Shown: piece after piece, positions 2,267 through 64,000 of the stretch
How positions within the stretch are numbered: position 1 is the first letter of the stretch
How the letters are laid out: every line of letters begins with the position of its first letter
Made by a program: the position numbers and the translations under genes
The notes under the pieces: generated by a model
The model's input: the letters and a program-made list of their open reading frames with translations, nothing else
Database searches by the model: none
Told to the model about the DNA's origin: nothing
From: Geranomyces variabilis
Taxonomy: Eukaryota; Chytridiomycota; Chytridiomycetes; Spizellomycetales; Powellomycetaceae
NCBI GenBank assembly: GCA_027603065.1
Contig: JADGJP010000027.1
Location: forward strand, 309,430 to 373,429
DNA length: 64,000 nucleotides
Reading direction: 5' to 3'

Positions 2267-4839
2267 TTAATGCAACCGATGTCTAGGATACGAGAATTCT
2301 CTGTCACGATTTTCGTCCTCTGTCAAGTCTAAGGGCACGTAGTTTGTCCCTGCCAGTCCGTAGTCAAGCCCACCGGTGCTTGACAGCTCATCAAACTCCT
2401 CATCCTCCCACACATAGCGTTCGTCCTTCCTATCAACATCCCCAATCCCGTAGTCAACATCCTGCGAGTAACACCCGACTTCAGACTCGACCCCAGTTCC
2501 TAATACGCAATGCAGTTGTTCAAGCGGCTGGGGATAATAGGTTGACAAGTTACCCATGTCATAGACGGGAACTTCTGGGTACTCGACGTCGTTGTCTCCG
2601 TCCGCGTACCACGAGCAGTGTGCGCGAGCGGCCGTGTTTTCATCGTAATGATCAAACACAGCGCCGCTTGCGTCCGGACTCCAGAAAGAAGCTCCCCCTG
2701 ACGACATCAACGTGTTTAGCGCAAGCTCGCCGTGGGGTACACATTGAACCAGGAAAACCTGCCCACCTTGGGAATCCCAGTATTCTGAAGCCGCATGCTC
2801 GTCCGCGGCTTCGACAACCTCCATGGCATTGCTTGCCAATGGCTGCCGCCGGCGCACAAACAAATCTGAGATCACGGCTCCCGTCCTGTTGCAATCTTCC
2901 TGCTGGCTCGCGCCGGTCCGCGGACGATTACCGATGGCTTGCAGCACATCCATCGAATTCACCCGTCCCGCAACGTTGCTGGAATGGATAGCAGAGACTT
3001 GTAGATCATCTTCATTTCCGTCCTGTGCTGGAAATTTGACGCTCGTCACTGCCGTCTTTGGACTGCCTATTGCGGCCGCGGCTAAAGGTATCGGCTGCTC
3101 ATGCGGACTACTTGCGCTGCTCTGAAGCCGAGTTAATCGCCTGAACAAGAGCATCAAAAGTAGTTGCACGAGCAACAGCCAGCGGGCTTACCGTGGCCAC
3201 ATCCGCGCTTCTACGCCGAGTTACAATTTCCACCCGCCGAAGACCTTCGCATGAAATTTACATATCTTACGAAAGCAAGGGAAAGGCTCAGCGATAACTT
3301 ACCTGTATATGATTCCTGCATCCGAAAGACAAGACACATCTTAAGCCAACGAGTTGCGTGCGTGGTGAATGTAGACAGCATCGCATCTTACCTCCGACGG
3401 CGCTCGATTCCACCGTCTGGATCTCTGCAACTTCTCGGCACTGGCCGCAGCATCATCCTCCAGACGGCTAAATCCATGGCCCGGAGTTCCTCGGCTTCCG
3501 CGACTCGGTCCGAGCGCAAGAGGGGTTTCAGACGAAGACGATTTACTTTCCAGCTGATTGGGGGCTCTCGTGTCCTTTGACTTTCGAAAATAGTCAGAAA
3601 TCTCGACACGCGTATCTGCGGGCGTCTTGTGCTTTGATTTTCGTGCTCCGATGTTTTTGTCGCGCTTTGGAGACAGCGAGACAAGGGATGATGATCGTTC
3701 TTCCCCGTGAGAGTCAAAAGAAGTCCCATCAGAACTACCACCGCGTCCGGTGTTGACATACCCGGCTCAATTTGGACGCACCCAGAGCTTACACCCTTAT
3801 TAAACAAGCCAAGTCGATGAGTTCTAGGCATCTGCAAATGTGAGACATTTAGGGCCGTGACCATCCTGAACGAGTGCGTCAAGTGCTTCAATGCTTACGC
3901 TTAGGCGACCCGATGTCACGTTCCGTGATTTGAACGACTGCAGCAGCATTGCATTAGGCCTCGCAAATATGAGATGGATCACGCTTTGTGTACGTGGTGA
4001 TACCCACCTCCATAACCTGAGAGGGGAGATTCCTCATCGCAGGTCGTTTACCCTTGGCCTCGCTGGAAGCTTGTTTTTGCCCGCTTATACCTTTTCCCTC
4101 CTTGCGTTTGCTTATTGACTTTAAAGCTTTCAGCTGCTGTTTTGGTTGTAGTCGAAGCGCGGGCGGTGATGTGGTTGACGAGGTGCTATCAGATTTGGCA
4201 TTTTTGACAGCTCGCCGCGGCGCGATCTTCGCAGGTAGTTCCGGCAAGGGATTAACCGCCACCACAGTCTCCTTTCCAGCATCAGGTAACGGGAGGTGAG
4301 ATGTTGTTGGTTGGTTCTCCTTGCCGCCTGGTTGCTTTCCATTATACAAAAGGTCGGCGCGTCAGTACGCATTAGTATAGTTACCAGACGCAAGCTTGTA
4401 CATCCTTACGCTAGCGGGCGCCGCAGTAGTATGCTTGCGCGAGCGAATGGGTGATATGCGTGCTGATGCCGCTGACTCGGGCGAGGTGAGTAGTTTGCGC
4501 TTTGCAGGTCTGGTGGGAAAATGGACAAGTTAGGGTCGTAAGAGTCTCCTCACACCAGACACCCAGGAAGAACCTTTTCACTGACAACTGTGGATGAATG
4601 GAGCCGTCCTTGGCCTGCATTGTCAAAACCCGCTTCGGCTTAACGGATTTGCCCTCAGTCTCTTGGATCCCGCTCGCTGTTTCTGGTGCGCTTGCGCCAG
4701 GCGGCGGTCGGCGCCGCGGCTGTAGGTTTTGCGCAAGCTCGCTCTGCTGCCTGACATACTGGTGAACATAAAAATCTCGCTCCTCGGCGCTAAACTCGAT
4801 GCGGGCGAGGTTTTCCTGCGTGAGTGGAAGATGCTGCAT
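2267..4839 (-). CDS. Unknown basic, Ser/Lys-rich nuclear-type protein, multi-exon
   Basis: I do not recognise this protein. Reading on the minus strand from ATG 4837-4839, good exons are 4574-4839, 4410-4509, 4008-4334, 3899-3937, then 3303-3315, 3192-3244 and 2267-3121 (stop 2267-2269). A further exon ends at 3392 and is open back to about 3770. Its join to a possible exon near 3793-3831 is not resolved, so the middle is uncertain. The first exon starts MQHLPLTQENLARIEF. The second encodes a nuclear-localisation-like stretch KRPAKRKLLTSPES. The central part is Lys/Ser-rich, and the last exon is acidic and Tyr-rich. The 13-nt exon 3303-3315 is flanked by a good acceptor and a GTAAGT donor. 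Its start lies 365 bp from that of topoisomerase II, transcribed away from it. A chromatin or cell-cycle role would be a guess. Confidence 0.6.
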
Positions 4840-5204
4840 AGCAAGATTTGAGCTTCTTTTCCGACAGGTGCAAGGCCGGAAAGCCCGGCGTGGGAAAATG
4901 CAAAAGACAGCGAAAGCATGTCCTCAGCTCGATGTTAAAGCAGAGCAAAGCGAATGCCTCACATTTTTAGGAGCTGTGCTGGAGGACTCGTTCATATTGC
5001 AGATGTTCGGCGCAGTCCGAATGACTGTCGGCAGGTGAGGATGACATGGCCGAACGGAGCGCGAGCAAGCAGTCGGCGCGTCTGGACGGACCCCCTCACC
5101 TTCCCACGCGTGCACATCCAGAAAATCTCTCTAGATCGTCCGCGAGGCACAGCAACGATCTTCCCGACAAATCGGCTTACTTTTGATTCTGCTTTGGAAT
5201 CGAG
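4840..5204. promoter_or_regulatory. Divergent spacer between the unknown gene and topoisomerase II
   Basis: This 365-nt stretch separates two start codons facing away from each other, so it should hold both promoters and 5' leaders. I see no clear TATA box and no open frame I would trust. Confidence 0.45.
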
Positions 5205-8200
5205 ATGTCGTGTACAGAGGACGACTCGTTTAGCGATTTCGCACCGCCTGCAAAGGTACATTCGAGCTGCCCCTGTCTCTCCTCCCTCTCTCGTGGTAGA
5301 CGCTAAACGGTCTCTTTTTTAGGCTGCGAAAAAACTTGCGACGAAAGCTGCTGCTTCCCGCGCGGCACCCAAAGCTGCTCCGAAGCCCAGGGCTCCCGCG
5401 AAACCGAAAGCCAAAGCTGCGCTGGGCGAAGTCAACGTAAACGATGAGGAGAATACGGCTGCTGCGCCAGTTGCGAGCAGGGCGAAAACCACGGCAAAGG
5501 CGGAACCCAAGAGCATTGAGGAGGTGAGGCACAGGTTGGGCTGAAAAAGTTTGGCAGCAGTTGGCGCTAATGCAGCCCACCGCTTTCAGGTATATCAAAA
5601 GAAAACTCAGTTGGAACACATCTTGATCCGACCCGACACCTACGTCGGCTCCATCGAGTCGCAGACCGTGCCGATGTGGGTGTACGAGGATGACAAAATG
5701 GTCCACCGAGATGTCACCTATGTTCCTGGACTGTACAAGATCTTTGATGAACTCATTGTGAACGGTAAGGCGTTGTACGCACTTCTGAGCCGAAACGTCC
5801 CGCTGGCTCACCAAGGGTGACTGTAGCTGCCGACAACAAGGTCCGCGACCCGACCATGGACACTATAAAGATCAACATCGACAAGGAAAACAACCGAATT
5901 TCAGTTTACAACACTGGTCGCGGAATCCCGATCGAAATGCACGCGAAAGAAGGCGTCTACGTGCCGGAGCTCATTTTTGGACATCTGCTGACTTCATCGA
6001 ACTATAACGATGGCGAGAAGAAGATTACAGGTGGCCGAAATGGATACGGCGCAAAGCTGTGCAACATTTTCAGTACTGAGTTTATCGTTGAGACCGCGGA
6101 CTCGGTTTCAGGACGCAAATTCATTCAGGTATGATGGATGGACGAGGTCCGATGGAAATGAGCGCAAGGCTCACTCGCTATGATTGCAGACCTTTTCGGA
6201 TAACATGAGTCACAAAACAGCTCCCCGCATCACGAGTAATGCGAAAGGAGAAAATTACACCAGAATCACATTCAAGCCGGATTTGCAGAGATTCGGCATG
6301 ACGAGCATCGATCACGACTTTGAAGCTCTCGTAAAGAAGAGGGCATTTGATCTGGCTGGATGCGTGCGCGGCATCAAGGTCTTCCTCAACGACGTTCGCC
6401 TGAAGCTTAAGGATTTCAAAGACTACGCCGAACTTTATGTCAGCAGCGTGCAGTCTTCAGCCCTGCTCGGCAAACCCGTCGTCCTGTACGAAAGTCCAAA
6501 TGCGCGATGGGAGATTGCTTTTTCTCTAAGCGACGGGGAATTTCAGCAAGTCAGTTTCGTAAACTCGGTCTGCACCTCCAAAGGCGGGACGCATGTGGAC
6601 CATGTGGCAAATCAGCTGGTGACCAACTTGATAGAAGCCGTGAAAAAGAAGGACAAGAAAAGTGCTCCCATAAAGCCTGCTCAGGCCAAAAGACAACTCT
6701 GGGTGTTTGTCAACTGTAGCATTGAAAACCCCGCGTTTGACTCGCAAACCAAGGAGACTATGACGCTCAAACAGAGCAGTTTTGGCTCCAAGTGTACGAT
6801 ATCAGAGGATTTTATCAAGAAAGGTAAAATGGAATTCTCGCGAACAGCTCCGCAAGAGCCTTTGCTAAAATCTCTTTGCCTCGCGTAGTCCTAAAATCTG
6901 GGGCGGTCGACAAAATTTTGAGCTATGCCCTGAACAACCAAGAAAAGCAGTTGAAAAAGACGGATGGCACCAAGACAAATCGTGTCACGCATGAAAAGCT
7001 GGACGACGCCAACAACGCGGGAAGTAAGAAGGCAAAAGATTGCACGTTGATTCTGACGGAGGGCGATTCGGCCAAGACATTAGCCATCAGCGGTCTGTCA
7101 GTCATCGGACGCGACAATTTTGGAGTGTTCCCACTGAGGGGCAAGCTTTTGAACGTCCGAGAAGCATCCCATGCTCAAATACAAGCCAACGCCGAGATTA
7201 ACGCGATCAAGAAGATCATGGGCCTGAAGCACGGCACAGTGTACGAGTCGGTCGACACTTTACGTTACGGGTCCCTTATGATCATGGCTGACCAGGATTA
7301 CGACGGCTCGCACATCAAGGGCCTGATCATCAACCTGATCGACCACTTTTGGCCGAGCTTGCTGAAAATCCCCGGTTTTTTGGTTGAATTCATCACCCCC
7401 ATTGTTCGGGTAAGTCAACAACGAATCCAACTTGTCCTTGTTTCAATGCTCAAAACTCAATTATTGTGCGCAGGTGACGAAAGGAGAGGATGGTCCGAAT
7501 CCTCAGGAACATAGTTTTTTCACAATGCCGGAGTATGAGGCGTGGAAAGCTGAAAACGATGACGGCAGATTATGGAACCACACGTACTACAAGGTGTGCA
7601 GTGCGCACGGATATGCTGCGATATTAGACTATGTTTACCTGACCGTGTAATATTTCAGGGTCTCGGTTCCAGCGATGCCAGCGACGCAAGGAAGTATTTC
7701 TCAGACCTAGAAAAGCATATGAAGCAGTTCAGCACCGTTAAGGCCGGCGACCGGGAGCTTATCGACATGGCGTTCAGCAAAAAGAAAGCTGATGAGCGCA
7801 AAGAGTGGCTGCGGCAATTTGCGCCTGGAACATACATGGACTACGGGCAGGCCGAAATTCCGCTCGACGAGTTTGTGAACCGGGAACTCATCCTGTTTTC
7901 GATGGCGGACAACTTCCGATCTATTCCATCATTCGTCGACGGGCTTAAGCCTTCGCAGAGAAAGATTATGTTCTACTGCTTCAAAAAACAACTCAAGAAG
8001 CCAGAGAAGGTTAACCAGCTTGTCGGCGGCGTAGCGAAAGAAACGGCTTATCACCACGGTGATGTTAGTTTGGTATCGACGATCGTTGGCCTCGCTCAGC
8101 GGTTCGTCGGAAGCAACAACGTTGCAGTCTTGCACCCTTGCGGTCAATTTGGCACTAGATTGCAGGGCGGAAAGGATGCCGCCAGCGGTCGTTACATTAG

Positions 8201-10802
8201 CACCAGGCTTTCGCCACTCGCGCGCGCCTTGTATTGTCAAAGCGACGATCCTTTGCTTGCGTATCAAAATGAGGATGGTACGAGCATTGAACCAGAGTGG
8301 TACATGCCCATCCTGCCGGTTCTGTTACTTAACGGAGCGGAGGGTATTGGTACGGGCTGGTCAACCTCAATTCCGAATTACAATCCCCGCGACGTCGTCG
8401 ACAATCTTTTCCGACTAATGAAGGACGAGGAACCCCTGCCAATGAAGCCTTGGTACCGTGGATTCCAAGGAAACATTGAGATGACGTCGAGGGACAAGTT
8501 CAAGGTGACTGGTCTCATTGAGAAAATCGATGAAACGACCGTCAGAATCACCGAGTTGCCCATCAAGTGCTGGACACAAAGCTACAAAGAAGACCTGGAT
8601 TCGTGGGTCACGGGCACGGAAAAAGAGCCTGCGTGGATCACGAGCTATACGGCGCATCACACGGACTCGAAAGTGAACTTCGTGATTACGCTAACCGAAG
8701 AACAAATGGAACGCGCAGAGAAAGAGGGTCTTGAAAAGCGCTTTAAGCTCGTCGGCTCCTTGTCGACCTCCAACCTCGTGTGCTTTGATCAAGAGGGCCG
8801 CATCAAGAAGTACGAGAGCATCGATGATATTCTACGCGACTTTTACGATCTCCGTAAAAAGTTTTATCAGAAACGCAAAGAATATATGCTCAACACTCTC
8901 AACCACGAGCTGGCGATATTGGAAAACAAGATCCGCTTTGTGACAGAGATCATCGAAGGAAAACTTGTTGTGCAAAACAAGAAGAAATCTGTGTTGCTGC
9001 AAGAGTTGCACACCAGGAAGTATCTGGCGGTCGTCGAAGAGAAGAAAAAGATTTCAAAAAATGCGAAAGACGCACCCGAGGATAATGCCGACGAGGATGA
9101 TGACCCCGCTGGCGCCGCGGGCGGCGGCTATGACTACCTTTTGAAGATGCCTATTTGGAACCTGACCATGGAAAAGGTCTCAGTCTCTGTTTTCGTAGTG
9201 GGTCGAAGGAGGACGAGCCTCTAACTCACAATCCCCATTTCGGTCTCCACAGATTGAGCAACTTATCAAAAAGATGGAAGAGAAAGGGGGGCAAATCGTT
9301 GATCTTTCAAAGAAATCGATCTACGATCTTTGGCGAACGGATTTGGAAGCGTTCCTCGTCGAGTGGGATGTACGTGCAATAGCGTCGCTCGGTGCAATCC
9401 ACGCAATGTACGATCTTCGAATCACTGACATTTGGGTCCTATTAACCTCGCAACTGAACAGAAATTCGAAGCAATGATGACGAAAGAAGAATCCACCGTC
9501 CCAAAAAAGGGTGGAAACGCCACGGTTCACCAGGCTAAACGCAAGCCCGCGACAAAGAAAAAGGTTGAGGTAGTAAGCAATGACGATGACGATTTTGCCG
9601 TTAAGATCGAAAAGCCAAAACGCGCTACCAAAGCGCCTGCAAAAGCGGCCAAAGCGGCACCCCCACCTGTAGCGGCGACCGTTGACGAAATTACCGATGA
9701 TTTTTCGGCCATTGATATTGCTGCAGCGTCAGCGCCTGCGGCACCCAAGAAGCGCGTTCTTGGCGGCAAAAAAGCGACGACGGCCGGAGCGTTGCGTGGG
9801 GCGGCTGCTGCGTCTGCTGGATCCAAATCCGCGTCTGCGACCTCGGCTCCGTCTAGCGACGCAAAAGTTGCGTCAAATTCCAAACGCACCGGTGCAGCGG
9901 CCACTGCGGAATGGGATTTTGACGCAAAACCTACAGGGATTGATGATTACATGGATGTGGATGTGCTGGCGGCCACGGCGAATGCTGCCTTTGGAGCCAG
10001 CAAGACAGCGGCACCGGCAGCGCCGGCGCTGGCGCCCAAACGGGCTGGGCGGGCCAGGAAGCCGGCCGCTTTTATCGAGTCTGACTCCGATGACACGGCG
10101 GTCACGGAAGGTCGGTCTAAACCCGCGTCCGATTCGGATGACGGCATGCCGGTGGCGGCGGTGGCCAAGAAGCCGCCGCCGGCCGCCGCCGCCTCCCGCG
10201 CGCGAACACAGAAAGCGCCTGTTGCTGTTGAATCGGAGACTGAGGAGGAAGACGAAGACATATTGGCCGCAGCGCCTAAGCGTACGGCTGTAAAGGCAGC
10301 CGCTGGCAAGTCGTCGGCTGCCGCCGCCTCCCGCCCGAGAGCAAAGAAGGCGCCTATTGCTGCTGAATCAGAGACTGAAGAGGAAGAAGAAGAAGTAGTG
10401 ACCGTAGCGCCCAAGCGTGCGGTTGCAAAGGCAGCAGCGCCACCGGCTGCTCGACGAGGAAAGAACATTGTCGTTTCTTCCGAGGCAAGCGACTTTAGTG
10501 AGGAGGAACAGGCGGATGCCGCGCCGCCGCCGCCGCGTGCTGCCCCGGCAAAGTCGGCAGCTGCAAAGCCAGCAGCAAACACTGCGGCAGTCAGGGCAAA
10601 ACCAAAACCTGTCGCGGCGGCTCCTGCTGCCGTCGCTGCTGCTTCTGCAGCTCCAGTTGCAGCGCGGGCAGCACGGCGTGGCAGGCAGCCGGTCAAGTAT
10701 GTTGTGAGCGACGACGAAGGGGAAGAGGACGAGGAAGCAGAGTTCAGTGAGCCTGCAGATGAGAGCGAGGACTCGTTTGTGGAAAGCGAGAGCGACTACT
10801 GA
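5205..10802 (+). CDS. TOP2: DNA topoisomerase II (type IIA, eukaryotic)
   Basis: ATP-dependent enzyme that passes one DNA duplex through a transient double-strand break; it acts in the nucleus in replication and chromosome segregation. Exons: 5205-5255, 5323-5523, 5590-5764, 5827-6128, 6190-6823, 6889-7409, 7474-7593, 7659-9176, 9253-9369 and 9462-10802. All phases close to 1659 residues. The GHKL ATPase shows GGRNGYGAKLCN. The TOPRIM domain shows LTEGDSAKTLA with its glutamate near residue 512, followed by MADQDYDGSHIKG. The breakage-reunion domain has GKDAASGRYISTRLS, which places the catalytic tyrosine at residue 847. The last exon encodes a low-complexity C-terminal tail of Ala/Lys and Ser/Asp/Glu blocks, including a roughly 40-residue unit present twice around ESETEEE. 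The start gives a short acidic N-terminus before the Ala/Lys-rich linker. Confidence 0.97.
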
Positions 10803-17968: not shown

Positions 17969-19681
17969 CTACACCTGATACTTTTCCCACCCCGTCTCCT
18001 CCAACGCCGCAATCTTGCCCTCAACGACACTCTCCTGCTCCTTCATGTACGCGTGTATCGCATCGCGGTATTCCGGCACATGTGCGCCAAGAATCCGCAC
18101 CGCCAGCAACGCCGCATTGACGGCATTATTGATCGCCACAGTCGCAACAGGAACGCCTCGCGGCATCTGCACAATCGAGAGAAGCGAGTCCATCCCGTCA
18201 AGAACTTTAAGCGCGACAGGCACGCCAATGACGGGCAGCGGGGTGATGGCCGCTACCATTCCCGGAAGGTGCGCGGCGCCACCTGCTGCGGCGATTATGA
18301 CTTGAAGGCCGCGGGTGTGTGCCGAGCTGGCGTATTCTACCAATCGGGTAGGGGTGCGGTGGGCAGAGACGATTGTTACTTCGAACGGGACGCCGAAACG
18401 GGTGAGGATTTCGGCGGCGGGTTTGAGCGTTGGGAGGTCCGAGTCTGAGCCCATGATGATGCCGACTTGGGCGGCTTGGCGCAGCTTTGACGGAACAGTG
18501 TTTTGTAACGGCGGAAGAGCGAGACCGGGTCCACCAAGAATGGTGTCCATCCCTTCGAGAAGGGTAGCGAGCGACTTGGCAACAACGGTGATATGTCCCA
18601 TCTTGCGCCCGGCGCGCGATTCCTTCTTGCCATACAGATGCACAGTGGCACCAGGGACCACCATCGACCGTGCACACGGTGCAAGCGTTTCCTCCAGACC
18701 ACCAGCCACTCCAAGAATGTTGACCATGCCCGCAACCGGCACTTTCATCTCGGCAGATCCCAGCGGCAAGCCAAGCACACATCGCAAATGTTGCTCAAAC
18801 TGCGACGTATAGCACGCTTCAGTGGCATAGTGACCAGAGTTGTGTGGCCGCGGAGCAATCTCGTTCAGCACGATATCGCCCGATGGCATCAAAAACATCT
18901 CCACGCCGAAAATTCCAATGCCCTGTAAACCGGTAATCGCTTGCTCCGCAATCCTACGTGCGCGAACCTGGAAAGCGCCGTCAATCTGCGCAGGCGCAAT
19001 GACAACGTGGCAAATGTTGTCCTTTTGAATTGTCTCAACGCATGGATACGAAGCCACGCTGCCGTCTGCTCCGCGAGCCACCATGACGGCGACTTCCTTG
19101 ACAAACGGCACCATCTTTTCCAGATAGAGCGCAGGCTTTTGTTTCGAAGCGCCACCGCCCAGAAAATCTATCGAGGCGGCCACATCCTTCTCATCCTTGA
19201 TAACGCGGTTCCCGCGTCCATCGTATGCCAGCGTCTTGATCTTGAGCATAGCAGGGAATCCAAATCCCGACGCTCGAATATCACGTTCTTCATTTCCCGG
19301 CTCCAGATCCACATACGGCGCCACGGGCACTCCGAGCTTTTCCAAGTGGCACTTTTGTACAAACTTGTCTTGAATGATCCTCACGACCTCGGCGCTCGGG
19401 CGGGCCTCAACGCCGTATTTTTTCGCCGCGGCTTCGAGCGCGGTAGCGTCGACATGCTCGATTTCGGTCGTTAGGACGGTGCATCGAGAGGCGAGGGTGT
19501 CGATTGCAGTCGGGTCGCGGAAATCGCCGGCGACATGGCCGTCGGTTGCAGCGCAGAGATCAGTGGCGGGGTTGGCAGGTTGGTCGAGCACTAGGACTTT
19601 GACGTTAAGCCTGTTGGCGGCTTCAATGAGCATGCGGCCCAGTTGGCCGCCTCCCAAAATGCCGATAACTTTGTTGTCCAT
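17969..19681 (-). CDS. ADE2: Phosphoribosylaminoimidazole carboxylase, bifunctional fungal type
   Basis: Sixth step of purine synthesis: carboxylation of AIR to CAIR. Intronless, 570 residues, the same size as the yeast enzyme. The N-terminal half is the ATP-grasp PurK part ([18 protein letters not shown], then [37 protein letters not shown]). The C-terminal 165 residues are the PurE mutase part ([42 protein letters not shown]). An in-frame Met lies upstream at 19783, but family alignment favours [11 protein letters not shown] at 19681. The upstream extension is basic and unlike the family. The gene shares a 258-nt spacer with the divergent PPR gene. Confidence 0.97.
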
Positions 19682-58917: not shown

Positions 58918-60541
58918 TTAGAACCTAAACGATCCTTCACCCACAATGCTAATTCTTGGATTTGCCGTTTCCCCACGCCCCGCTTTCGCGCGCATCCACA
59001 CCAGCAGCGGTCCCCACTCGGCCTGCACGCGCCCGCCCTTTGGATGCGGTACGTCGAGGTATCCATGTTCCTTGTAGAACCGCTCCGTATGCCATAGGCT
59101 CCATACCTCGACGGTGAGAATCCGCGGCAAACGGTGCAGTTCCTGGATCAAGCGGCGGGAAAAGCCCATGCCTTCGTACGCGGTGTTGATGTAAAGTTTG
59201 TCAATGCAGATGTGGCGGGGGTCGTCGAGGGCGTGGAAATACTATTTTTGCAATGGAATAGTCAAAACATGAGCAAAAAAACAATTGCATTCCGGGATCC
59301 CACCTGCCCTATGTTTCGCCATACCTCAATAAACCCCACCAAATCCGCCGTACACATCGTCCCACTCGCGATCGAGCGGCCCGAGTCGGCACGCCAGTAG
59401 GACAGGATATGGTGGTCGCTTTCCTCGTCCTGTCCTACGCGTGGGTATACCAAATCTGTATCTTCTCCTCCTGGCATTGTTCCGTCCAAACCACCATCCC
59501 CGCCACCACTACCGCCACGATTCGCAGCGTTCGCGACCGCGAGCAGCAGGTCGCGACATATCGCAAGGAACCGCTCGTCGCCGGCCCGGAGATGCCGGAC
59601 AGCGACTTTTGGCGGTGTGATGCCGCGTAATGTCGGGTCGGTGAGGGAGGAGATGGAGGATATGGATCGCTTTTCTGATAGCGATTCGCCTGTGGGAAAT
59701 CAGAACAATATGAATTACAACGAAATTGCTAAAACCAATGACTTTACGAGCAGAGCGTCCCCACCCCCCACCTACGTCGTATCGGCGCCATCTCCGTCTT
59801 CTTTCTTAACAAATAATTCGAATTCGTCTCTGCAGGCGTCGCCGTGCTCAACACGTCCCCACCGCGCGCGACCAGCTGCCGATGATGAAGACTTCGCGCC
59901 AAATTGTCGTCAATGTCCCCCATTGTCGTTCTCGGTGAGCCTATCATTGACATCCCGTCCTCATCGGCTGGCGTGTCTTCTTGCGGAGGTTGGTGGAGCT
60001 GCGGCGGTGGTGGTGATCGGTGGAGGAGTGTCGTGGGCATGATGGGAAGGTCTTCTTCGTGGTCGGATAGGATTTCGGCTATGCGTTGGTCGCCTTGATG
60101 GAAAAATTAAGTGTCAAGCGCATATATAAAGGAAATCGAGGGCATTCTCCCTATCCGTGTCCTTACCTAGCGCATCTACGTCGACGGGAGGTGAGGCAGC
60201 AGAGCGCAACCCACCTTTTGTTGCAACCCACACCCAAATATCTAACCATGACAGACAGAAAAAACCCCCTTTTAGCAATGACATTGCCAGCGTACGCCAC
60301 GCTCCCTGTCCCATCCCGTTCTATCCAAATTCCGTATTCTCCACACACCATACGACATCTTTGCCCAAATGTAACAAGTCGTCAAGGTAGTGACGATGGG
60401 AATGGCGGCGACAGAGGCAAGCGGGAGAAAGAGCAACGACATTGGCAGCGCAATGACTGCCGAGACGCAGCCGACGCCAAGGACCCATACGCCAGCGACA
60501 TGGCCGAGATAGGACTTGAAGGTGGAATGGGTGTGGTCCAT
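58918..60541 (-). CDS. GNAT-family N-acetyltransferase with N-terminal membrane segments
   Basis: Minus-strand exons 58918-59241, 59325-59689, 59776-60093, 60167-60241 and 60301-60541 close to 440 residues. The N-terminus (MDHTHSTFKSYLG) leads into two adjacent hydrophobic stretches, VAGVWVLGVGCVSAVIALPM and LLFLPLASVAAIPIVTTL, likely a membrane hairpin. A Pro/Asp/Glu-rich linker of about 140 residues follows. The acetyltransferase part starts at about VAVRHLRAGDERFLAICRDL. The acetyl-CoA-binding motif is ICIDKLYINTAYEGMGFSRR, and the end is ERFYKEHGYLDVP. A membrane-anchored layout recalls NAT8/NAT14-like enzymes, but the substrate is unknown. The first splice (GTGGCG donor at 60300) was chosen by phase and is the weakest. 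Confidence 0.72.
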
Positions 60542-60779
60542 GAAGGGTTTTTTTGGTGGTGACGAAGCGAAAATGGCCCGACGCGTCTGTGACGCACATG
60601 ACAAGTGACCAACCATCAATATAAAGCAAGGCACATCAACCGCAACGGAAGTAAGGGACAGTGACGATGAAGAGCTTACAGGTGTATTGAAATTACAATG
60701 AGATAGTTATAAAACGGGCGTTTTGCCGGTCATTTCGACACTCCGCGCGTCCGCGCACAATAGAAAGTCCGTCCCCCTC

Positions 60780-61001
60780 AGGGTCATGCAGCGCACTCGC
60801 CCTACAGCAGCGCCTAACCATTCTCTCTTTTCCCACGCAGACATCTGTTTTTCTTGTGTCGCCCTCCCTCCTCTGCCTGCCTTTGCCCACTACGCTGCAC
60901 GCCGCAGCATTCTGACTGTGCTGCTCTAAGGTAATTACTGAGGGTCATGCAGCGCACTCGCCCCACAGCAGCGCCCAACCATTCCCTCTTTTCCCACACA
61001 G
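60780..61001 (+). repeat. Pair of 61-nt direct repeats upstream of the Fanzor gene
   Basis: Copies at 60780-60840 and 60941-61001 start AGGGTCATGCAGCGCACTCG and end in TTTTCCCAC(G/A)CAG. They differ at 4 of 61 positions. The second copy ends 7 nt before the Fanzor ATG. Both end like splice acceptors, so they may be alternative 3' splice sites for a leader exon. They may equally be a duplicated left end of a mobile element. The stretch 60542-60779 holds no gene. Confidence 0.85.
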
Positions 61002-61008
61002 TGCAGCC

Positions 61009-64000
61009 ATGTCTCGTCGCCGCCCTCGCTCATTCAACCTCCAATCTCTTCCACGAACGCCACCTCTTGGTTCACCGCCCAGCAAGCGTCAACGTTGGAA
61101 TGAGGAGGCCGCCCGCCATGCTGCAATCTTCATAGGAGACGCCGATGCAATGCAGCTGGACAAGGTTCAAGAGGTGGATGCTGGTGCACAGCTGGACGAG
61201 GCTGAAGAAGTGGACGCCAGTGCAATGCAGCTGGACGAGGTTGAAGAGGTGGACACCGACGCACAGCTGGATGGGGTTGAAGAGGTAGAGGCCGACGCAC
61301 AGCTGGATGGGGTTGAAGAGGTGGACGCGGACGCACAGCTGGATGGGGTTGAGGTGGATGCTCACAATGCCTTGAGATGGCATGCACCCCGGAGATGGGC
61401 CAATTCACATGGCCATCCACCGCCGCCACTGCTGCTACCTGCTGAAAGAGCCAAGCGCTTGCCACCTAGCAACTACGTGTGCGTCAGGGCCCGATTTGGT
61501 TCTATCATTCGCAACAACAAGGACGCTGCAGTGGCAAGGCTTAACGTCTTTTTGCGGCATGTGCATCTTATCACTCAACGGGCGTCATGGATCATCAAGC
61601 TGTGGTATGCCAACATGCCACATCCGCAGGTATGTGCCTGATTCGATTCAAAGCATTATTATCCATCACATATTGACTGTAATTACTGTAATTTCCGTCT
61701 TCTTTTTTAAAGGCCGCACATATCTTGACAGACAAGGATGTCAAACATCTGCTGAATGCACTCAATTTCAGTGAAGTCACTCGCGGCGGCATCTTTCAAG
61801 CCACGCTGATTGAGTACGACACCAACGTTGAGAACCTGACGGCGGTATCACAAGCAACATTGCCACGTGGCAACCTTCAAAATACGATTGCCTACACCGC
61901 TACCAGCTTGGTTACAAACATTGAAGTCAACGTGTCCGTCAACTTCATGAAGAAGTTGCGCCAATACGTCGAGCACAGGTTTCGCATCAAGACGATCTTG
62001 CGGGAGTTCAATCACATTACCAACAAACACATACGCAAGTTCCTGTATAAACGTCTACGCCGTCGTTTCAACCGGCTGTGGAGGCTGATCACGAATCAGG
62101 ATGTTCTTGTTGATGGCAAACTACCGGCCTTTGAACCGGCTTCCGATAGTGTTTTCTTTGATATTTGGGGTGAGATTTGGTGCATCTTGCCGGATGATCC
62201 AAAACGCTTTGAGTTCAATCTCGCATACGCGGTAGCATGCAAATCCGCAAAATACGTCGGCACATATTGCGCACTCTCTCGCTTGTGGCAAGCAGCGCGA
62301 TTTCCGGCCCTCTTCTCAGCTATTCCTGTGCGCACCAGCCATGTTCAATTGTATGTCCCCATTGACACGAAAACGCTCCTCGATGTTATAACTTGCCCAC
62401 CTGGCCGTAAAGCGCTACCGCACTCAACTCACGAGCAAAAGCTGAGATATTGGAACATGTTTTGCGACGTCAACCACAAGTCTTTTCAAGATCGCGGAAA
62501 TTATAAGTTTTCAGGTATTGCGTTTGTGATGCTGTTTGCGTGCATACATTACTATCATACTAATTGCTAGACCTCCGGAGATTAGGAACAATACTTACGG
62601 ATGGTGTCGGTGTCTCGGTTCGTCATGTTGATATGACCAAGGTCACCGTAACTACAAAGGGCCGTCCCATGATGCCAAAACCACGCAAAGTATCGAAGGC
62701 GGCCCAGCGTGCAGCGGTTGACAGGCTCTACATTGACACGCCAGAAAATGCTGCCGTTATTCGTGACTGTATCTTGCATCCAGACCCCAATGCGCCAGTG
62801 GTCCTCTGCGATCCGAATATCCGCGACATGCTGTATTTGAAGGAGTACGGCACCGACAATATCATGCGGTACACACTCTCACAGCAAAAGAAGGAAACAA
62901 AGGCTCGCGAGCGTGTTAAGGAGTGCAACAAGGACCGGCTTCGCAACTTGCCAGCGCCGGGTGGTGGAAGTTTAGAGGCAACAATGCCAGGGCACAAGTC
63001 AATGCTGGTAAGTTATAGTGGGGGTAGTTTTGTGATGCGCAATGCTGAGATGCTGTGGATGCTGAGATGCGCGATGCTGTGATGCTGTGGATGCTGAGAT
63101 GCGCAATGCAGATACTGAGGTGCACAGCGGATGCTGAGATGCGCGATGCCACTGGATTGCATGGTGGATGCTGAGATGCGCGATGCTGCAACGCGCAATG
63201 CCGCTGCATTGTATGGTGGATGCTGAGATGCGCGATGCCACTGGATTGCATGGTGGATGCTGAGATGCGCGATGCTGCAACGCGCAATGCCGCTGCATTG
63301 TATGGTGGATGCTGAGATGCGCGATGCTGTGATGCGCGATGCCGCTGGATTGCATGGTGGATGCTGTGATGCGCCATGCTGTGATGCGCGATACCGCTGG
63401 ATTGCATGGTGGATGCTGTGATGCGCCATGCTGTGATGCGCGATACCGCTGGATTGCATGGTGGATACTGTGATGCGCAATGCGCGATGCCGCTGGATTG
63501 CATGGTGGATGCTGTGATGCTGTGATGTGCGATGCGCGATGTAGATGTTGTAGTGAAGTGCACAGCGGATTGCACAGCGGATTGCATGGTGGATGCTGAG
63601 ATGCGCAATGCGCAATGCAGATGTTGGAGTGCACGGCGGATGCTGCAACGCGGTGCTGTTTTCGACACCAGTCACTGGTAACTAACTTTTGTTTTATCTT
63701 TTTTTTTGTTTTCTGCTAGGCCGTCAACTTCAATCAATGGCTGGCATTTCAAATGCAGCATCGCCTGGCATTTGAAAACTGCTATGCTGCAACCACCCGA
63801 TGGCGCTGCCGCAAATTTGAAGCTTTTCGTCTGGTGCGCAAAAGTGAAGACCAGTTTGTGAACCGGCTCTGCAAGCAGTTTGGCCAAGATCCCCTTATCA
63901 TCATGGGAGATTGGTCTGCGGCCCCTCGCAGCATGCGTTTCCAGCCTCCCATCAAGACGGCACGTTTTCGTACAATGCTTCGCCGCCATCATATATTGAT
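61009..64000 (+). CDS. Fanzor-type RNA-guided nuclease (TnpB-like), 3' end outside window
   Basis: Fanzors are eukaryotic relatives of TnpB that cut DNA under the guidance of an omega-RNA-like transcript and ride on transposons. Exons 61009-61629, 61713-62514, 62571-63007 and 63720 to the edge keep phase and give 713 residues so far. The basic start MSRRRPRSFNLQSLPR is followed by acidic repeats (about residues 45-120). A long basic-aromatic helical part follows, as in the recognition lobe (RIKTILREFNHITNKHIRKF; LYKRLRRRFNRLWRL). RuvC-I-like: VVLCDPNIRDMLYLKEYG with Asp555, then MRYTLSQQKKETKARER, where the family reads DPG-R-L and a Tyr-Ser-rich stretch. The next block is QDPLIIMGDWSAAP then RFRTMLRRHHILI, matching the strand and arginine helix before RuvC-II. 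The expected RuvC-II Glu, zinc cysteines and RuvC-III Asp would lie right of the window. Confidence 0.85.
61165..61355 (+). repeat. Coding minisatellite, 36-42 nt units, in Fanzor exon 1
   Basis: Five to six in-frame units encode variants of DAQLDGVEEVDA, the earlier ones with SAMQLDEVEEVD. The three right-hand units are nearly identical at DNA level (GACGCACAGCTGGATGGGGT), so they arose recently. Confidence 0.85.
63008..63719 (+). repeat. Minisatellite filling the third Fanzor intron
   Basis: The intron starts GTAAGTTATAG and ends TTTTCTGCTAG. Between about 63045 and 63655 it is almost wholly made of shuffled short modules: GATGCTGAGATGCGCGATGC, CTGGATTGCATGGTGGATGC and CTGCAACGCGCAATGCCGC. 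Higher-order copies are visible: a unit of about 90 nt twice (from about 63148 and 63238), and a unit of about 52 nt at 63342 and 63394 with a partial third. The array has long stopless frames on the minus strand, a by-product of its composition. Its 712-nt length compares with 56-83 nt for the other two introns of this gene. Confidence 0.9.

Follow-up and report, generated by a model that had tools for sequence, protein, structure and literature searches.

A probable SpuFz1-related Fanzor1 gene in a multicopy mobile element of the chytrid Geranomyces variabilis

Geranomyces variabilis is a chytrid of the Spizellomycetales. Fanzors are enzymes that cut DNA under RNA guidance and are related to the nucleases of CRISPR systems. 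The right-hand end of the window, by which we mean the whole 64,000-nucleotide stretch analysed (C20:309430-373429), holds a gene on the forward strand at 61009-64000, of which four exons and 713 amino acids can be read before it is truncated. Contig C20 has 373429 bases, so the end of the window is also the end of the contig. The features, in window positions, are as follows.

60704..61008, + strand: 5' leader common to other copies; homology upstream of the gene starts at -305 from the ATG
60777-60840 and 60938-61001, + strand: pair of 64-bp repeats within the 5' leader, 92% alike
61009..61629, + strand: Fanzor1 exon 1, with a basic N-terminus, acidic repeats and the onset of the SpuFz1-aligned region
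61153..61352, + strand: coding minisatellite in exon 1, 36-bp unit, 5.5 copies, encoding the acidic repeats
61713..62514, + strand: Fanzor1 exon 2, from gene model and homology; median dN/dS 0.34 (21 copies)
62571..63007, + strand: Fanzor1 exon 3, carrying the RuvC-I block CDPNIRDML
63008..63719, + strand: intron 3, 712 bp, mostly minisatellite
63720..64000, + strand: beginning only of Fanzor1 exon 4, MGDWS...KTARFRTMLRRHHIL, stopping just short of the RuvC-II Glu

The preliminary description had read the locus as a Fanzor gene of a zoosporic fungus, and comparison with known Fanzor proteins supports that reading. A phmmer search of the PDB aligned residues 136-712 of the window protein with SpuFz1 (8gkh) at E 1.5e-40 and found the Parasitella Fanzor1 (9cf0) at E 1.9e-11, matches well beyond chance that identify the gene as a Fanzor1. 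The blocks LCDPNIRDM, YTLSQQKKE and MGDWS are all present in the order described, and the frame is intact as claimed: the 713 codons are open, without stop or frameshift, across three introns of 83, 56 and 712 bp that all have GT...AG borders. It was also correctly noted that the sequence stops just before the RuvC-II Glu. Because the contig ends there, neither the RuvC-II Glu nor the zinc finger nor the RuvC-III Asp can be read in the window copy. The acidic stretch of exon 1 varies in length among the window copy, its paralogue on contig C78 and the homologous proteins P0001 and P0002, and repeats similar to those of intron 3 occur at the same position in other copies.

The missing C-terminal part can be followed in the C78 paralogue (locus L039), which has five exons (2373-2864, 2930-3731, 3791-4224, 5097-5471 and 5547-5807), runs to a stop codon and encodes 787 amino acids; its exon 4 is 90% identical to the window copy over the 93 residues read there. 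Residues 91-780 align with SpuFz1 (224 bits, E 2.4e-65), and PpFz1 (9cf0) is matched at E 2.9e-26. A scan of both spliced proteins, from the window and from C78, against Pfam-A gave no match. Among the homologues of the C78 protein, 11 of 15 carry a precomputed assignment to PF26935.1, and the TNB profile PF07282 matched seven places in the genome, all outside the copies of the window family.

In the alignment of SpuFz1 with the C78 protein, DPN stands opposite DPN, DEYKTS opposite DEFRTS, CPRC opposite CPFVIC, CTNPNC opposite CTGREC, and NRD opposite NRD. The Mg2+ ligands of SpuFz1 are described as D383, N385, E541 and D606 (PMC10432273), and a D, an N, an E and a D of the C78 protein align with them (with a fusion offset of 394, counted by hand); the Asp aligned with D606 is that of NRD, the RuvC-III residue. 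The RuvC-II Glu lies six residues ahead of the first finger Cys (EFRTSSRC) in C78 and P0001, an arrangement termed Ealt and presented in PMC10711439 as a Fanzor fingerprint. The preliminary description had named the RuvC-II Glu, a CxxC pair and the RuvC-III Asp as the residues to look for. Both acidic residues and four Cys are present in the paralogue, but the spacing of the Cys has changed, an insertion making the first pair C-x4-C (CPFVIC...CTGREC). The second finger Cys is replaced by Arg in P0002 and, as read by eye, in L084, the copy on C59. Since contigs break inside this repeat family, the interior C78 copy may be a product of chimeric assembly.

The DPN of RuvC-I had been flagged as an unusual context for the catalytic Asp. 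It is no warning sign and no defect, because active SpuFz1 shares DPN and its Asn binds Mg2+, as described in PMC10432273. DPG at this position is called near exclusive in Fanzors in PMC10711439, and the window family reads DPN; since SpuFz1 itself has DPN, DPG is better regarded as common than as defining. The homologue P0014 is also DPN, and P0015 from Powellomyces is DPG. PpFz1, the second-best solved relative, has the same order of motifs but reads DPG in the alignment, and its match is weaker than that of SpuFz1.

By its sequence, the window gene is not a lone gene but a member of a multicopy family that shares its 3' terminus and shows further features of mobile elements. Exon 2 is present at no fewer than 24 loci, the window included, a lower bound since only the best-scoring candidates were evaluated; the other 23 are 73-86% identical to it over the parts that match. 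Introns are retained wherever the alignment of a copy spans them. Among the 8000 candidates sharing most words with the query, which were the ones scored, C78 residues 110-787 have at least 15 homologues, of which 13 are annotated in Geranomyces variabilis (75-89% identical) and one in Powellomyces hirtus. A median dN/dS of 0.31 at a median dS of 0.24 (136 pairs among 17 copies) shows purifying selection on the copies; besides the value listed above for exon 2, the median is 0.29 for exon 3 (17 copies) and 0.16 for exon 4 (11 copies). Of the 25 copies aligned, 18 have the RuvC-I site covered, and all 18 keep CDPN, as does the window copy.

It could be argued that the window copy is a dead relic, a homologue of Fanzor1 that is no active nuclease gene. 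Many sister copies carry stops or frameshifts, with zero to four stops per copy in the projected codons, counts that are upper bounds, since the C78 copy scored one despite a gene model free of stops. Neither the catalytic Glu nor the second Asp is reached before the contig ends, and most of the duplications are not very recent, given that dS between copies is nowhere below 0.141 and has the median stated above. The window copy itself, however, is open over all of its codons, keeps CDPN and has a median dN/dS of 0.28 against 16 other copies. Moreover, the C78 copy is intact and full-length, and near-full-length proteins of the family are annotated in other G. variabilis assemblies. We therefore regard a relic as unlikely. 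Our preferred reading, that the window gene is a Fanzor1 related to SpuFz1 and lies in a multicopy mobile element of Geranomyces variabilis, is very probable.

A strongly conserved part of the element is its 3' terminus, a stretch of 74-78 nt that begins 27 nt past the stop codon in the intact copy. All seven interior copies end at one point, ...GCCGCCCCCTGGGCTTG, with small variants, and a further 21 contig ends begin inside the 3' terminus and lead inwards. The terminus is directly followed by TA in 27 of 28 copies. Since so many contigs start inside it, the contigs are broken within a dispersed repeat. This bears on an alternative in which the copies are a host gene family, for example a subtelomeric one, unrelated to mobility. 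The idea arose from the 18 of 24 copies that break off at a contig end, or within 0.8 kb of one, pointing outwards, in a genome that has TTAGGG telomeres. A subtelomeric family was rejected once the 3' terminus appeared at the inward-leading contig ends, and the eight contig ends bearing an exact TTAGGG 24-mer have no match to exon 2; direct repeats of 11-12 bp around four members, considered below, also speak against it. Such a host family is now highly improbable.

The mean pairwise difference of the 3' terminus among the seven interior copies is 0.029, about 7-10 times less than the divergence of synonymous sites (median dS by exon 0.19 to 0.28), in a comparison where the sets of copies differ and dS is corrected and 0.029 is not. 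The interior copies are the fairer sample, because the roughly 76-base starts of the contigs resemble k-mer overlaps and their identity is partly ascertained. The terminus is probably structured. The predicted fold has three hairpins, the last closed by CAGGC and GCTTG, and 92.4% of the cells in the alignment of 19 distinct sequences are paired; sliding the partner strand reduces this to 31-50%, a contrast helped by the structure being the fold of one aligned sequence, which favours it over slid versions. Left out of this alignment were L088 and L090 (chance hits of the pattern), L087 (truncated) and duplicates of termini already included. Shuffled alignments retain 91.1% of cells paired on average, so the make-up of the columns accounts for most of the pairing. 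Three pairs are changed on both sides, against 1.0 in the shuffles, and three were reached in 14 of 500 shuffles. Two of the three look like true compensations in stem-loop 1 (relatives C26 and C12), and the third comes from row oC34, whose first 16 bases are seemingly non-homologous. The energies of folding are weak, with z from -0.5 to -1.8 for four sequences, a set in which the L059 row ends a few bases off.

In SpuFz1 the guide RNA has a 75-nt scaffold adjoining the end of the element, with the guide taken from the flank. By analogy, the position of that RNA would be the position of the conserved 3' terminus here, and we infer that the terminus is a candidate omega-RNA scaffold.

The 5' side of the element differs from the 3' side in being variable. 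Leaders vary between copies and share modules as a mosaic, some bear repeated units about 130-320 bp apart, and some copies (C16a, C21) are 5'-truncated. The 3' terminus in inverted form (its first 20 bases, with up to four mismatches) was not found in the 5' flanks examined or in the whole window. The family in this respect is unlike SPu-1, the element of SpuFz1 in Spizellomyces punctatus. According to the descriptions in PMC10432273 and PMC3627910, SPu-1 measures about 2.1 kb and has one ORF; its inverted repeats are 30-33 bp long, and its putative duplications are TA. The two are alike in the DPN at RuvC-I and the aligned E and D, in a conserved 3' terminus after the stop codon and in being multicopy with ORF-poor relatives. 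The Geranomyces family has five exons, one intron filled with repeats, acidic repeats near the N-terminus and, in four members, 11-12-bp duplications, and the SPu-1 combination of terminal inverted repeats of about 30 bp with a TA duplication was not found in it.

Direct repeats were seen around four members. L059, an ORF-poor relative, is flanked by one of 12 bp, and repeats of 11 bp join three pairs in which an element is split between contigs (C36a/C61, C13b/C28 and C46/C52). In these pairs the repeat starts exactly at the 3' end of the element and lies within about 10 bp of the start of leader homology. As a control, 11-mers taken from the 28 flanks at the exact end matched four times, compared with 0.65 times on average, and never more than 3 times, at 78 other offsets. 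The fourth of these matches is the window's own, and leader homology does not support it: a putative duplication of the window copy at 59807-59817, matching contig C64 over 11 bp, was set aside because leader homology starts only at 60704 and other offsets gave an average of 0.65 such matches. The 11 bp that end where the shared leader begins (60694-60704) gave 13 matches with up to two mismatches, none at a known 3' terminus. In the flank examined, none of the seven interior copies has a direct repeat that reaches 10 bp, C45 having a 9-bp match, and among eight older 3' termini only L059 has a duplication. The case for an 11-bp target duplication, as judged from these flanks, is good but not closed.

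What moves the element can be considered under several explanations. A non-LTR retrotransposon might supply target-primed reverse transcription of the unspliced transcript. A fixed 3' end with variable and sometimes truncated 5' ends would be expected of such a process and the 11-12-bp duplications would fit it, and the genome encodes reverse transcriptases with long open frames (16 RVT_1 matches, which may belong to any kind of retroelement). It is nevertheless an unlikely explanation, as introns are retained, the four duplications are of nearly constant length, and the general analysis, as distinct from a dedicated search, noticed no retrotransposon with the same 3' terminus.

Somewhat better placed, although still doubtful, is a one-ended DNA transposase acting in trans, Helitron-like or Crypton-like, as has been considered for CRe-1,2,3 and MCi-2. 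In the account of Bao and Jurka (2013, PMC3627910), MCi-2 elements of Mucor circinelloides share their 3' end and differ in their 5' regions, lack recognizable terminal inverted repeats and have target site duplications of 11-12 bp, and the 5'-truncated CRe elements of Chlamydomonas have duplications of about 7-19 bp, a pattern termed one-ended transposition. The anatomy of the Geranomyces family resembles that description of MCi-2 and of the 5'-truncated CRe elements in its shared 3' end and differing leaders, and no terminal inverted repeat was found; duplications of the MCi-2 length are seen in four members and in none of the seven interior copies. The MCi-2 duplications are described as beginning with ATAATT, whereas here three begin with TA and one with TT. 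MCi-2A is reported to contain a partial Crypton transposase. Against a Helitron-like enzyme, the genome gave no Helitron_like_N match, but the control genomes were equally silent and absence is not implied. Helitrons are recognised by a Rep/helicase, a CTRR 3' end and no target site duplication, and the 3' end of the element here is GGGCTTG, not CTRR. In the open literature searched, Fanzor and one-ended transposition occurred together in PMC3627910 only.

Machinery in trans acting on the 3' end of the element would in general terms be the probable means of movement, given the variable 5' ends, the failure to find an inverted repeat and the duplications of 11-12 bp around four members. For the role of the Fanzor1 itself we favour the following scheme, whose inferred steps are less sure than the assignment of the gene to a mobile Fanzor1 family. 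The 3' terminus would be transcribed as the omega-RNA scaffold, with the flanking DNA after the TA serving as guide. The ribonucleoprotein would then cut an empty site, where DNA matching the guide adjoins a short motif that ends in TA, and repair from the copy that bears the element would keep or restore it.

The duplications allow one further suggestion. All four begin right where the 3' terminus ends and cover the first 9-10 nt of the would-be guide. The target motif of SpuFz1 is CATA, and at the left start of the duplication stands CATA in L059 and GATT, TGTA and GATA in the other three, so that the motif is not constant. The element transcript, comprising omega-RNA and guide, might be reverse transcribed from the target strand opened beside the motif, in which case motif recognition by the Fanzor would contribute to insertion as well as to homing after loss. 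We consider this very unlikely.

The Geranomyces family is a new relative of a known fungal Fanzor and not a new system; it joins a SpuFz1-like protein to an MCi-2-like anatomy. It provides a second Fanzor1 family from chytrids that has the DPN of active SpuFz1, and a further likely case of a one-ended Fanzor element with duplications of 11-12 bp, which bears on the role of Fanzor for its element. With its intact full-length copy, a candidate guide RNA of compact size and natural guide sequences in 28 flanks, the family makes the target motif and guide directly testable. No paper pairing Geranomyces with Fanzor was found among the best-ranked matches, and supplements, which lay outside the search, may well name the species.

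The same genome has three more Fanzor-like loci, L002 (C11), L003 (C18) and L006 (C13), which read DPG and are distant from the window family. L006 (positions 1-1803; G000:C13:124209-126011) encodes an in-frame ING-type PHD finger at about residues 194-250, before RuvC-I, with E 3.1e-10 to the PHD finger of ING4; no paper with both "Fanzor" and "PHD finger" was found in the open literature searched. Its counterpart in strain HDU90 (P0016) is without the PHD segment, which was perhaps modelled as an intron, and the C-terminal end of L006 appears frameshifted by eye. On one class of copies, represented by L044 (C34b), the opposite strand of the leader resembles a piece of a Copia reverse transcriptase, also by eye. 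The left end of contig C20 carries a TTAGGG telomere (C20:3-99) and reverse-transcriptase matches at C20:108-338, 8086-8559 and 18680-19153, which are possibly telomere-associated retroelements.
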